A DNA stretch of 10,483 bases, from assembly GCA_021157815.1 (NCBI GenBank), contig JAGGVT010000050.1, positions 1 to 10,483 of the forward strand, written 5' to 3'. Source of the DNA: a bacterium (GTDB lineage: Bacteria > JAJVIF01 > JAGGVT01). Positions 2,404-10,223 of this stretch are shown here, one piece after another. Numbering within the stretch: the stretch's first letter is position 1; every line of letters starts with the position of its first letter. The translations under genes and the position numbers were made by a program. The notes beneath the pieces were generated by a model. It saw only the letters and a program-made list of their open reading frames with translations. It was not told where the DNA came from and made no database searches.

Positions 2404-2534
2404 GGGGCTGTTGAAAAAGCCCTGAATGTAGGGGGTAGGTCTCTGTGCCTACCCTAAATATTGGCATAAATACAGGGCAACCACGGAGAGTTGCCCCTAC
2501 GGTCTGGGATATAATGGGCTTTTTCAACAGTCCC
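2404..2534 (+). mobile_element. 131-bp MITE-like element, copy A, inserted in a REP palindrome
   Basis: The ends are GGGGCTGTTGAAAAAGC and GCTTTTTCAACAGTCCC, a near-perfect 17-bp terminal inverted repeat. The element splits a palindrome of the TGGATTCCCGC/GCGGGAATGAC family. The flank reads GTCATTCCCGCGAAA on the left and GAAAGCGGGAATCCA on the right, so GAAA (or CGAAAG, if ambiguous bases are shifted) is duplicated. Inside are two hairpins pointing at each other: GGGTAGG/CCTACCC (2433-2454) and GGGCAAC/GTTGCCC (2475-2496). Each is preceded by GTAG in its own orientation and has the loop TCTCYGTG. Reverse-complemented, the copy at 5866-5996 differs from this one at only about three positions. 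There is no coding capacity, so transposition would have to be supplied in trans. Confidence 0.8.
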
Positions 2535-5865: not shown

Positions 5866-5996
5866 GGGGCTGTTGAAAAAGCCCATTATATCCCAGACCG
5901 TAGGGGCAACTCTCCGTGGTTGCCCTGTATTTATGCCAATATTTAGGGTAGGCACAGAGACCTCCCCCCTACATTCAGAGCTTTTTCAACAGCCCC
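5866..5996 (-). mobile_element. 131-bp MITE-like element, copy B, inserted in a REP palindrome
   Basis: This copy has the same length as the element at 2404-2534 and about 98% identity to it in the opposite orientation. Ends are GGGGCTGTTGAAAAAGC and its exact complement at the right (the other copy has one mismatch there). It interrupts the same family of palindrome at the same place, between GTCATTCCCGCGAAA (5851-5865) and GAAAGCGGGAATCCA (5997-6011). The two internal GTAG-headed hairpins are present, but a T-to-G change in one arm breaks a pair in the GGGTAGG stem. No coding capacity. Confidence 0.8.
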
Positions 5997-6013
5997 GAAA
6001 GCGGGAATCCATT

Positions 6014-6109
6014 TTATTCTTTAATAAGACTATCGTGCAGTTCTTTCCATTCCTGGTTAAGGCATTCAATCAACTCAATATTCCACGCATTGCCCCGTAT
6101 CTGCATCAG
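6014..6109 (-). pseudogene. C-terminal relic of a GIY-YIG endonuclease gene (copy B)
   Basis: Reading leftward to a stop at 6014, the frame gives LMQIRGNAWN then IELIECLNQEWKELHDSLIKE. This fits the end of small single-domain GIY-YIG nucleases (UPF0213/YhbQ-like), which typically close with a basic W...KI.LIE..NPEWKDL..-L pattern. The N-terminal GIY-YIG core is absent: the frame runs straight into the palindrome at 6119-6143. The stop codon is followed within two bases by the interrupted palindrome at 5997-6012. So about 31 codons survive between two inverted repeats. The assignment comes from remembered family pattern, not a search. Confidence 0.6.
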
Positions 6110-6118
6110 AAGAAAAAT

Positions 6119-6143
6119 TGGATTCCCGCTTTCGCGGGAATGA
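6119..6143. repeat. Intact REP-like palindrome (TGGATTCCCGC / GCGGGAATGA)
   Basis: Stem and loop are identical to 2598-2624, again translating as WIPAFAGM in one frame. It faces the interrupted copy at 5851-6012, with the GIY-YIG relic between them, and ends 20 bases from the stop codon of the minus-strand membrane gene. It may serve as that gene's 3' hairpin. Confidence 0.85.
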
Positions 6144-6162
6144 TGTGTTACCGGGACACATT

Positions 6163-7311
6163 CTACAAGTGCAAAAAATCAAACAGCATAATGAAAAAGG
6201 TTAAAAACGTGATTCCCTTTGCCAAAGCGGGAATAAATAATTGCTTTTCTATTATAACGCTTTTTCTGGCGTTTATTATTATGTTCATAACCGGCAATAT
6301 CCCGATAATTGCGTACTTTATCTCTTTTTTCCTGATTGCATGAATCAGGCAATTTACTGCAACGAAAACATAAGTAATCAGAATTAAGAAAGCGATAATC
6401 ATTAGTGAAATAATCGAATCGTGTGTAAGTCTATTAAATGGACGTGCAAATAATATGGATTGATTAAAAAGTAAAAAATACATTAGATATGAAATCAGTA
6501 TTCCATAGACGATGGAATACAAAGAAATTATCCACAGGGCTGCGCCTTTTTCTCTCTGAAGAACATAAATATTAAGTACTGGAATCAATCCTGTAATCAC
6601 AAATTCAAATATTCCGGTCTTTAATGCATGTTGAATGGAGATTACTGCCGGATAAATCAAAACACAAAATATGCAAAAACGAGGGAAGGTTAACCAGTAT
6701 AAATCAACCATGAAAAAGGGAAAAAGATCGAAAGGTAATTTCAGTAGATAAGTTAATAATTCGATGAGGATTATGAATAATAGCGTGATCCCCTGTACAA
6801 GTGTGGCGATGAATATAAACTTCTCTTTTAATCTATCTTTTCCGGAATTGTAAAGAATATTAAAACCCGGAAATACTCCTATGATAGCGGGTTTTATCTT
6901 CTTCCTCTCGATTCCGTAAAACACACAATCAACTAAAATGAAAATATATGTTATAAAAATTAAACCGGAAAAAAATATCACTGGAATTATAAAGAAGTCA
7001 TAATGGGTCTTTGCAAGAATCTTGTAAACTTTATTGAAGTCAAAGAAGAAAGCAAGGATTATCCCCGTAACCATAGTTCCATAAATGATAGAATAGATGG
7101 CTGTCATCCACTTGGGCGCGGCATTTTCTCTTACAAGATAGTAAATATTAAAAATAGGAATTAATCCTGTGATTATAAAAAAGCGTTTTCCAGTTTTGCG
7201 CGCGTGCTGAAATGACCGGATTGCGGGCCCAAGGAATAAAAAAAATGTCAGAATGAGGACTATACTAAAATGGATAATCTCATCTATATTGTCAGAATAC
7301 AGAGGCGGCAT
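6163..7311 (-). CDS. Polytopic membrane protein built from two tandem ~190-residue units
   Basis: The 382-residue product is almost wholly hydrophobic, with eight or more probable membrane segments. Its two halves align with a constant offset of 192 residues and no gaps: SFQHARKTG (33-41) with SIQHALKTG (225-233), GLIPIFNIYYLVRE (49-62) with GLIPVLNIYVLQRE (241-254), and RKKIKPAIIGVFPGFN (136-151) with RKKEIKYAIIGILPVMN (327-343). Each half holds two IP..N[IV] loops, a motif that recalls the DUF5684-type small membrane proteins. This is a weak resemblance. The upstream neighbour at 7475-8089 carries a single unit of similar design. I chose the ATG at 7311 because GAAGGA precedes it at five bases. 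A longer start at 7380 has no ribosome binding site. Base composition is clearly more AT-rich than in murG. Function unknown. Confidence 0.75.
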   Translation of the reverse strand: MPPLYSDNIDEIIHFSIVLILTFFLFLGPAIRSFQHARKTGKRFFIITGLIPIFNIYYLVRENAAPKWMTAIYSIIYGTMVTGIILAFFFDFNKVYKILAKTHYDFFIIPVIFFSGLIFITYIFILVDCVFYGIERKKIKPAIIGVFPGFNILYNSGKDRLKEKFIFIATLVQGITLLFIILIELLTYLLKLPFDLFPFFMVDLYWLTFPRFCIFCVLIYPAVISIQHALKTGIFEFVITGLIPVLNIYVLQREKGAALWIISLYSIVYGILISYLMYFLLFNQSILFARPFNRLTHDSIISLMIIAFLILITYVFVAVNCLIHAIRKKEIKYAIIGILPVMNIIINARKSVIIEKQLFIPALAKGITFLTFFIMLFDFLHL

Positions 7312-9389: not shown

Positions 9390-9414
9390 GTAACCCGGCA
9401 TCCCCTTGCCGGGG
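9390..9414. repeat. RAYT-linked REP palindrome, downstream side
   Basis: GTAA is followed by CCCGGCA, TCCCCT and TGCCGGGG, a hairpin of the same design as the array on the other side of the transposase and pointing the opposite way. It lies 27 bases beyond the transposase stop codon. It belongs to an 88-bp segment (9389-9476) that recurs at 10171-10258. Confidence 0.85.
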
Positions 9415-9441
9415 TCGCGACATAACCAGACCCCTACAATG

Positions 9442-9960
9442 TTAATCATATTCCGCACCGGAAATAGATATCACCTCTACTTCCGCCCAGTGTTTTTCAT
9501 ATATCCCTCTCTGAACATACTTATGAAAACTGGAATATTCCCACTCATGCGTTGATTTGACATATCCGTGTTTTACCGGATTGAAATGGATATACTCGAC
9601 ACAGTTTTTCAAGTCTTCATCTGATCGTACCGTATGCTCCCAGAATCGCGGCTGCCAAATTTTAACACCACTGCCAATTATTCCCTTTCTTTTAAGTTCG
9701 ATATTAACTTCTCGTTTGAAGAAAGCTATCATTTTCGAATAGTCTGATTTGCTGGGTTTTATCAGCCAGTGGAAATGATCAGGAAGTATTACCCATGCAC
9801 GGAAATTGACATCGAATTTATCGGCTGAATGTTGCATCTCCTGTTTGGCAAGTTCTTGTAATTCAGGGGATGAAAGCCATTTTTTTCGATTGAAAGTATT
9901 GAACGTGAGAAAGAAAACTGAATCGTTTGAAACTGGTTTGTGGCGACGATATTTTACCAT
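9442..9960 (-). CDS. REP-associated tyrosine transposase (RAYT, Y1 HUH family)
   Basis: This 172-residue protein has the IS200-like Transposase_17 layout. The HUH pair is H62-F-H64 in VILPDHFHWLIKPS, binding the metal ion. KMIAFFKREVN and IWQPRFWEHTVRSDEDL (101-117) are typical of the RAYT branch. The catalytic tyrosine is most likely Y123 in EYIHFNPVKHGYV. RAYTs nick single-stranded DNA at REP hairpins carrying a GTAG-type tetranucleotide, and are single-copy domesticated relatives of IS200/IS605 transposases. The cognate hairpins are present here: one downstream (9390-9414) and five upstream (9983-10196). All catalytic motifs are intact and the frame is unbroken, so it may be active. The ATG at 9960 has no obvious ribosome binding site. 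The array lies in the promoter region of the gene. Confidence 0.92.
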   Translation of the reverse strand: MVKYRRHKPVSNDSVFFLTFNTFNRKKWLSSPELQELAKQEMQHSADKFDVNFRAWVILPDHFHWLIKPSKSDYSKMIAFFKREVNIELKRKGIIGSGVKIWQPRFWEHTVRSDEDLKNCVEYIHFNPVKHGYVKSTHEWEYSSFHKYVQRGIYEKHWAEVEVISISGAEYD

Positions 9961-9982
9961 GATTGGGTATTATAACCTATTT

Positions 9983-10140
9983 CCCCGGCAAGGGGATGCC
10001 GGGTTACATTTTTCCCCGGTGAAGGGACACCGGGTTACATTTGGTTTGGGTAGGTTTGCAGATTCCCCGGTTAAGGGAAACCGGGTTACATTTGATACGG
10101 ACTGGTTTGCGGATTCCCCGGCAAAGGGATGCCGGGCTAC
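9983..10140. repeat. Array of four REP palindromes upstream of the RAYT
   Basis: Four 25-base hairpins lie in the same orientation at 9983-10007, 10014-10038, 10065-10089 and 10116-10140. Each starts CCCCGG and ends CCGGG[TC]TAC. The inner two pairs differ but stay complementary: CA/TG, TG/CA, TT/AA and CA/TG, around loops AGGGGA, AAGGGA-type. On the other strand the foot reads GTAA in three copies and GTAG in the last. The last three are spaced 51 bases apart, with related 26-base spacers (ending GGTTTGC[AG]GATT). Open frames across this region only translate the repeats and are not genes. Confidence 0.9.
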
Positions 10141-10171
10141 ATTTATCAGCAAGTAATCTGAAGTCCCTATT

Positions 10172-10196
10172 GTAACCCGGCATCCCTTTGCCGGGG
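10172..10196. repeat. REP palindrome in inverse orientation, copy 5 of the upstream group
   Basis: GTAA, CCCGGCA, TCCCTT, TGCCGGGG: the same hairpin reading opposite to the four at 9983-10140, so the group resembles a BIME. It is followed by sequence matching the transposase 3' flank. Confidence 0.85.
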
Positions 10197-10223
10197 TAAC
10201 GACATAACCAAGTTTCCACAACG

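Follow-up and report, generated by a model that had tools for sequence, protein, structure and literature searches.

The window analysed here, a 10,483-nucleotide stretch of bacterial DNA, carries at positions 2404–2534 a 131-bp MITE in which, very probably, a REPIN of a second RAYT family has been packaged in IS1182-type ends; the unit would move as IS-bounded DNA, target the loops of other REP palindromes and carry the REPIN as cargo. The argument is built on ends common to several elements, loop targeting, target duplications, a core identical to the REPs of a resident RAYT, and further subfamilies of the MITE whose cores differ. Small repeats of the REP and MITE kinds are commonly regarded as separate classes. 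In this one genome the nesting runs both ways, with REPINs within MITEs and those MITEs within the loops of other REPs, and three families of genomic parasites are thus nested in one another. Such nesting would explain how an unrelated transposase can multiply REPs, and it means that RAYT activity cannot safely be read from how many copies a REP family has.

The coordinates given in the initial annotation for the 131-bp unit are correct, and sequence and folding confirm its description as terminal inverted repeats (TIRs) around two GTAG hairpins with the same loop and different stems. The TIRs are 19-bp inverted repeats with one mismatch, namely GGGGCTGTTGAAAAAGCCC on the left (2404–2422, plus strand), which is identical to the terminal sequence opening an IS1182-type relict at G000:C90:4771, and GGGCTTTTTCAACAGTCCC on the right (2516–2534, minus strand). 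Hairpin A (2428–2454, plus strand) has its GTAG foot at 2428–2431, followed by the stem GGGTAGG (2433–2439), the loop TCTCTGTG (2440–2447) and the stem CCTACCC (2448–2454). After a spacer at 2455–2474 comes hairpin B (2475–2500, minus strand), recognised by sequence, the folding test and its free copies in many phyla, with its foot at 2500–2497, the stem GGGCAAC (2496–2490), the loop TCTCCGTG (2489–2482) and the stem GTTGCCC (2481–2475). An IS-like subterminal stretch (2501–2515) completes the unit and, together with the TIR, reads GCCYATTAT on the minus strand, as does the left end of the relict. The two hairpins form a REPIN or BIME pair with outward GTAG feet and the common loop TCTCYGTG; GTAG abuts the stem foot in hairpin B, and in hairpin A a single G, absent from some other copies, lies between them. 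Each shows the GTAG foot, beside a stem whose basal pairs are G-C, that is expected of group-4 REPs. Against shuffled sequences, hairpins A and B fold at z-scores of -4.2 and -3.3, with nearly all shuffles folding worse, and a 181-nt region folds at -8.6, with no shuffle equally good. Rfam gave no matches within the window.

The host genome (an assembly of 3.2 Mb in 221 contigs, 91% complete) contains dozens of nearly identical copies of this MITE, and a search scored 40 matches at 95–100% identity. A 16-mer of the TIR occurs, with up to 2 mismatches, at 280 sites, whereas its reversed control has 6. Hairpin B, when as many as 3 mismatches are allowed, has 91 sites compared with 0 for its control, so that the unit stands well above chance. 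The element is short, non-coding, bounded by TIRs, present in many copies and accompanied by a target duplication upon insertion, as MITEs are. A second copy lies in the window itself (5866–5996, minus strand), where it occupies the loop of a different REP from the same family, with a GAAA duplication; the core of an intact partner REP adjoins it at 6122–6141. The listed 156-aa open reading frame at 5873–6343 begins within this second copy, runs through its hairpins and is probably spurious. Many contigs end in MITE copies, as is expected of any repeat; the possibility of a chimera or of an assembly artefact was rejected, since copies lie inside contigs and the duplications are regular. The 131-bp MITE was not found in the viral contigs or plasmids searched, nor in the relatives searched, none of which belongs to the same genus.

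The surroundings of the unit reveal what it inserted into. The outer half of a target REP, CGTCATTCCCGC (2388–2399), which also flanks many other copies, is followed by GAAA (2400–2403), the loop of the target palindrome; GAAA is repeated at 2535–2538 on the other side and leads into the inner half, GCGGGAATCC (2539–2548). The partner REP of this target pair, GGATTCCCGCTTTCGCGGGAATGAC, stands intact at 2599–2623 as an unoccupied target. The initial annotation had left out the target REP halves (2388–2403 and 2535–2548), the GAAA duplication and the partner REP (2599–2623), and did not note the MITE's own targeting of loops in other REPs. When a palindrome loop was called from at least 7 of 9 complementary bases on either side of a 3–7 nt loop, 48 of the 57 hairpin-bearing copies with both flanks read lay in such loops, compared with 1.4% of random sites, proportions that are approximate rather than unbiased because the hairpin or an exact TIR was the main basis for choosing copies. 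In most copies within clear palindromes the duplicated segment is the loop itself, of 4, 5 or 6 nt; some MITE copies are without a recognisable palindrome or duplication. The target palindromes are several and unrelated, including ATTCCCGC(GAAA)GCGGGAAT, GCGGGC(ATCCT)GCCTGC, GCGGAC(AGCCTT)GTCCGC, GCCGCA(GTAGCC)TGCGGC and others. Exact, intact copies of the ATTCCCGC palindrome number 37 in the genome; the one at 2601–2620 is the partner to the invaded REP. The palindrome starts with CGTCATTCCCGC, and its resemblance to the CGTC-tagged REP super-family of PMC3733652 offers a lead.

Among insertions into the ATTCCCGC family, 24 copies have an outer half on one flank and an inner half on the other; in 18 of them an intact partner REP survives within about 170 bp, always on the inner side, as predicted. 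Another 10 copies are flanked by two outer halves, with loops mostly inverted; the partner REP is absent from all 10, and inner/inner copies number zero among the ATTCCCGC-family copies examined. Recombination between two MITEs occupying one REP pair, with deletion of the intervening DNA, predicts exactly outer/outer copies without a partner and no inner/inner copies. An apparent doubly occupied pair was met at C150, where the end of a 210-type element sits in one REP and the 131-bp element in the other. The outer/outer copies could instead have arisen in one step, by replacement of the stem-loop, since IS1272 has been reported to replace its target inverted repeat without duplication (PMC5678879) and the inner part of the target pair is indeed missing from these copies. 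We regard this as unlikely, if well worth keeping in mind: the IS1272-type outcome, in which the stem-loop is removed and nothing is duplicated, is not the pattern seen here, most copies keeping both stem halves of the target and duplicating the loop, an apparent doubly occupied pair exists, and the lack of inner/inner copies is what deletion between MITEs in direct repeat would leave.

The ends of the unit are of the DDE type, as seen from an IS1182-type relict transposon and from the target duplications. The relict (995 bp, G000:C90:4771–5765) opens with the same TIR and holds two transposase fragments, which match the NCBIfam IS1182 transposase model at E-values of 2.7e-32 and 1.2e-13, neither reaching the cut-off for the whole protein, and cover positions 14–82 and 422–487 of the 488 in NF033551; they also match the Pfam families DUF772, DDE_Tnp_1 and DDE_Tnp_1_6. 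The first 24 bases of its left end, including the GCCTATTAT subterminus, recur at one end of numerous copies of the MITE. Another related copy, on C56, shows the same internal gap as the C90 relict. The suggestion that the unit has DDE-style inverted ends holds. The suggested look for the TIR at the ends of a full-length transposon led to the relict: the left end is the one common to relict and MITE, the right TIR of the relict is degenerate, and neither an intact copy nor an intact IS1182-type transposase gene was found in the 91%-complete assembly. Movement of the MITE by a DDE-type transposase is well supported.

Occurrence of the TIR without the hairpins had been set beforehand as a check on the two-layer reading, and such occurrences were seen on the 995-bp relict and on MITEs of 190 bp and about 210 bp, all with the same TIR and devoid of GTAG-TCTCYGTG hairpins. 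The TIR is thus not tied to these hairpins. The 190-bp elements (L072:552–741, L194, L200, L202, L203, L208, L209, L211) have a core that starts with GTCATTCCGGG-CTTGA-CCCGGAATCC and closes with a degenerate inverted copy; the CATTCCGGG REP of this core has 118 copies in the genome, a minority of them within TIRs (8 confirmed among the loci read). The elements of about 210 bp (L192, L197, L205, L210, L212, L071), in which the halves are rearranged between copies, have as their core a palindrome set GTAACCCGG...CCGGGTTAC, one motif of which also occurs free at C85. The same ends thus enclose REP-like sequences of at least two families, probably three. Since different REP families lie behind the same TIRs, packaging occurred more than once.

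Such observations can be joined into a mechanism. Most likely the MITE is mobile as DNA delimited by IS ends, with an IS1182-type DDE transposase carrying out both cutting and joining in trans. This transposase would target an extruded palindrome and join the ends of the element across its loop; repair would then duplicate the loop, and the 4–6 nt loop would become the target duplication. The REPIN core is most likely passive cargo, and it may have been acquired when REPs entered the IS ends or became bracketed by them.

GTAG-TCTCYGTG hairpins outside the TIRs, which the initial annotation had asked for, are found in other bacteria, where more than 100 stretches carry them. In a pattern scan, hairpin B with the loop YCYCYGTG was met in at least 114 stretches of genome contigs, and the record titles among the matches listed include Binatia, several deltaproteobacterial groups, Gammaproteobacteria, Nitrospirae, Planctomycetes, Chloroflexi, Chlorobium, Cyanobacteria, Chthonomonadia and others. 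No TIR core lay within 150 bp of the free hairpins among the matches listed. An inverted partner within 90 bp accompanies 60 of 122 free hairpins among the matches listed (a partner facing the same way, 7), usually GGGCAGG-CACGGGGG-CCTGCCCCTAC. The pair GTAGGGGCAAC-YCYCYGTG-GTTGCCC / GGGCAGG-CACGGGGG-CCTGCCCCTAC stays almost the same letter for letter across many phyla (L076–L189), which seems hard to explain without frequent horizontal transfer. Several free hairpins lie in frame within REP-associated tyrosine transposase genes, just past the MPNHxHG motif; REPs in frame inside genes of TnpAREP subclass 2.4, equivalent to RAYT group 4, have been described by Quentin et al. (PMC6006769).

Hairpins beside another RAYT gene had likewise been sought, and they both flank a group-4-like RAYT of the host genome and lie in frame within it, which, with the free copies, supports the proposal that the MITE encloses a REP pair of a second RAYT-type family. 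This gene, on contig C10 (G000:C10; L267:324–1220), is an open RAYT of 298 aa matched at an E-value of 6.4e-78 by a profile of hairpin-containing RAYTs and, below the cut-off, by the NCBIfam REP-associated tyrosine transposase model; it is called group-4-like, or subclass 2.4, by the in-gene REP trait and not by the authors' profiles. Free REPs with the loop TCTCYGTG precede it (L267: 69–93, 132–156, 192–217 and 283–308), two further REPs lie in frame within it (651–676 and 945–970), and a MITE copy with diverged ends follows 72 bp downstream (1293–1422). The REPs in and around the gene have the same loop as the MITE core, and related stems. The cognate RAYT of the packaged hairpins is, as judged from sequence, present in the host genome at C10. 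A genome search with Pfam Y1_Tnp missed it, the REP-inserted gene scoring below the cut-off, and RAYTs with in-gene REPs may thus escape Pfam-based surveys. The REPs near the nine RAYTs found with Pfam are without the loop of the MITE core, except for one lone hairpin at C85, which has the stem and loop of hairpin A and no TIRs.

Two accounts would dispense with one of the layers. If the hairpins were mere internal structure of a MITE, unrelated to REPs or RAYTs, it would be natural that copies of hairpin B in the host genome lie mostly within TIRs, and strong folding is common among MITEs; however, the same pair occurs free across phyla, same-loop REPs stand in and around the C10 RAYT, and elements with the same TIRs exist without the hairpin pair. 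We reject this account, which the free copies refute and which we find scarcely credible. Nor is it at all probable that the unit is a long BIME or REPIN family moved by a RAYT, its "TIRs" being flanks only. REPINs are indeed multi-copy and arranged in inverted pairs, and some REP dimers are known inside long palindromes (PMC3733652), but the ends here are exact, the target loop is duplicated, and identical ends bound elements with other cores and the relict with its DDE transposase fragments; the common ends contradict it.

A further possibility is that both layers are alive, with a group-4 RAYT nicking and copying the packaged REPs, and so spreading or reshaping the core, and an IS1182-type transposase moving the whole unit. 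The open C10 RAYT with its same-loop REPs and the MITE copy 72 bp away would suit this, as would the TIR-free C85 hairpin with the stem and loop of hairpin A. One MITE copy on C139 (L054:490–791 = G000:C139:16889–17190), 302 bp long, contains five tandem 43-bp units of hairpin B and spacer, and subfamilies carry compensated changes in the stems: 9 of 62 copies have a C-G pair in place of T-A in stem A, and 8 of 62 a G-C pair in place of A-T in stem B. Tandem units, however, also result from replication slippage or unequal crossing-over, each compensated pair may be one event inherited by one subfamily, and the 190- and 210-bp elements moved without GTAG-TCTCYGTG REPs. The C139 array, the C85 hairpin and the compensated stems may therefore leave room for RAYT action, each having a simpler account, and we hold joint activity to be improbable. 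More doubtful by a shade is the wider idea that IS1182-type ends act as a palindrome-hunting packaging system which, by insertion into REP loops, repeatedly brackets REPINs of different families (at least two cores so far, probably three) and makes of them transposons that insert into REPs in their turn, the packaged REPs staying substrates of their own RAYT, so that two independent engines would drive one element. We favour a REPIN carried passively within IS1182-type ends.

Several parts of this picture are already known, namely REPs as IS targets, stem-loop targeting by the IS1182 family, and REPs inside group-4 RAYT genes. As far as the open-licence literature shows, the nesting of REPs, MITE and target REPs with duplication of the loop only is new. 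The IS1182 family and IS1272 (PMC5678879) are alike in that the transposase fragments match the IS1182 model and that palindromes or stem-loops of variable stem sequence are targeted; a palindromic target has been reported for some IS1182-family members. In IS1272, however, the target stem-loop is reportedly deleted without duplication, whereas here the target is kept and its loop duplicated, and the 131-bp element, unlike these, is non-autonomous. The same paper draws the loop-duplication outcome as a hypothetical pathway c beside the stem-loop replacement reported for IS1272, and the copies described here provide natural evidence for such a loop-duplicating route of hairpin-targeted DDE transposition. 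In contrast to the REPs and REPINs of TnpAREP subclass 2.4 (PMC6006769), most copies found in the host genome are locked within DDE-type ends. REPs are also preferred landing sites of the IS3, IS110, IS4, IS256 and IS5 families (Tobes and Pareja 2006, PMC1525189); the available text does not name IS1182, and here a REP-carrying MITE does the inserting. GTAG-15 of A. variabilis and GTAG-23 of T. roseum (PMC3733652) are similarly REP dimers nested in another palindrome, but the text available mentions neither transposon ends nor target duplications nor a parent IS for them. BrickBuilt, a MITE of Porphyromonas gingivalis (PMC4596501), likewise holds a repeat array within a bacterial MITE; its array is a 23-nt minisatellite rather than REPs, and the available part of that paper mentions no REP targeting.

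The window has a RAYT gene of its own, at 9442–9960 on the minus strand, which is surrounded by a different REP family, GTAACCCGGCATCCC, at 9391–10210. This family takes the form GTAACCCGGCATCCCTTTGCCGGGG and includes compensated stem variants.
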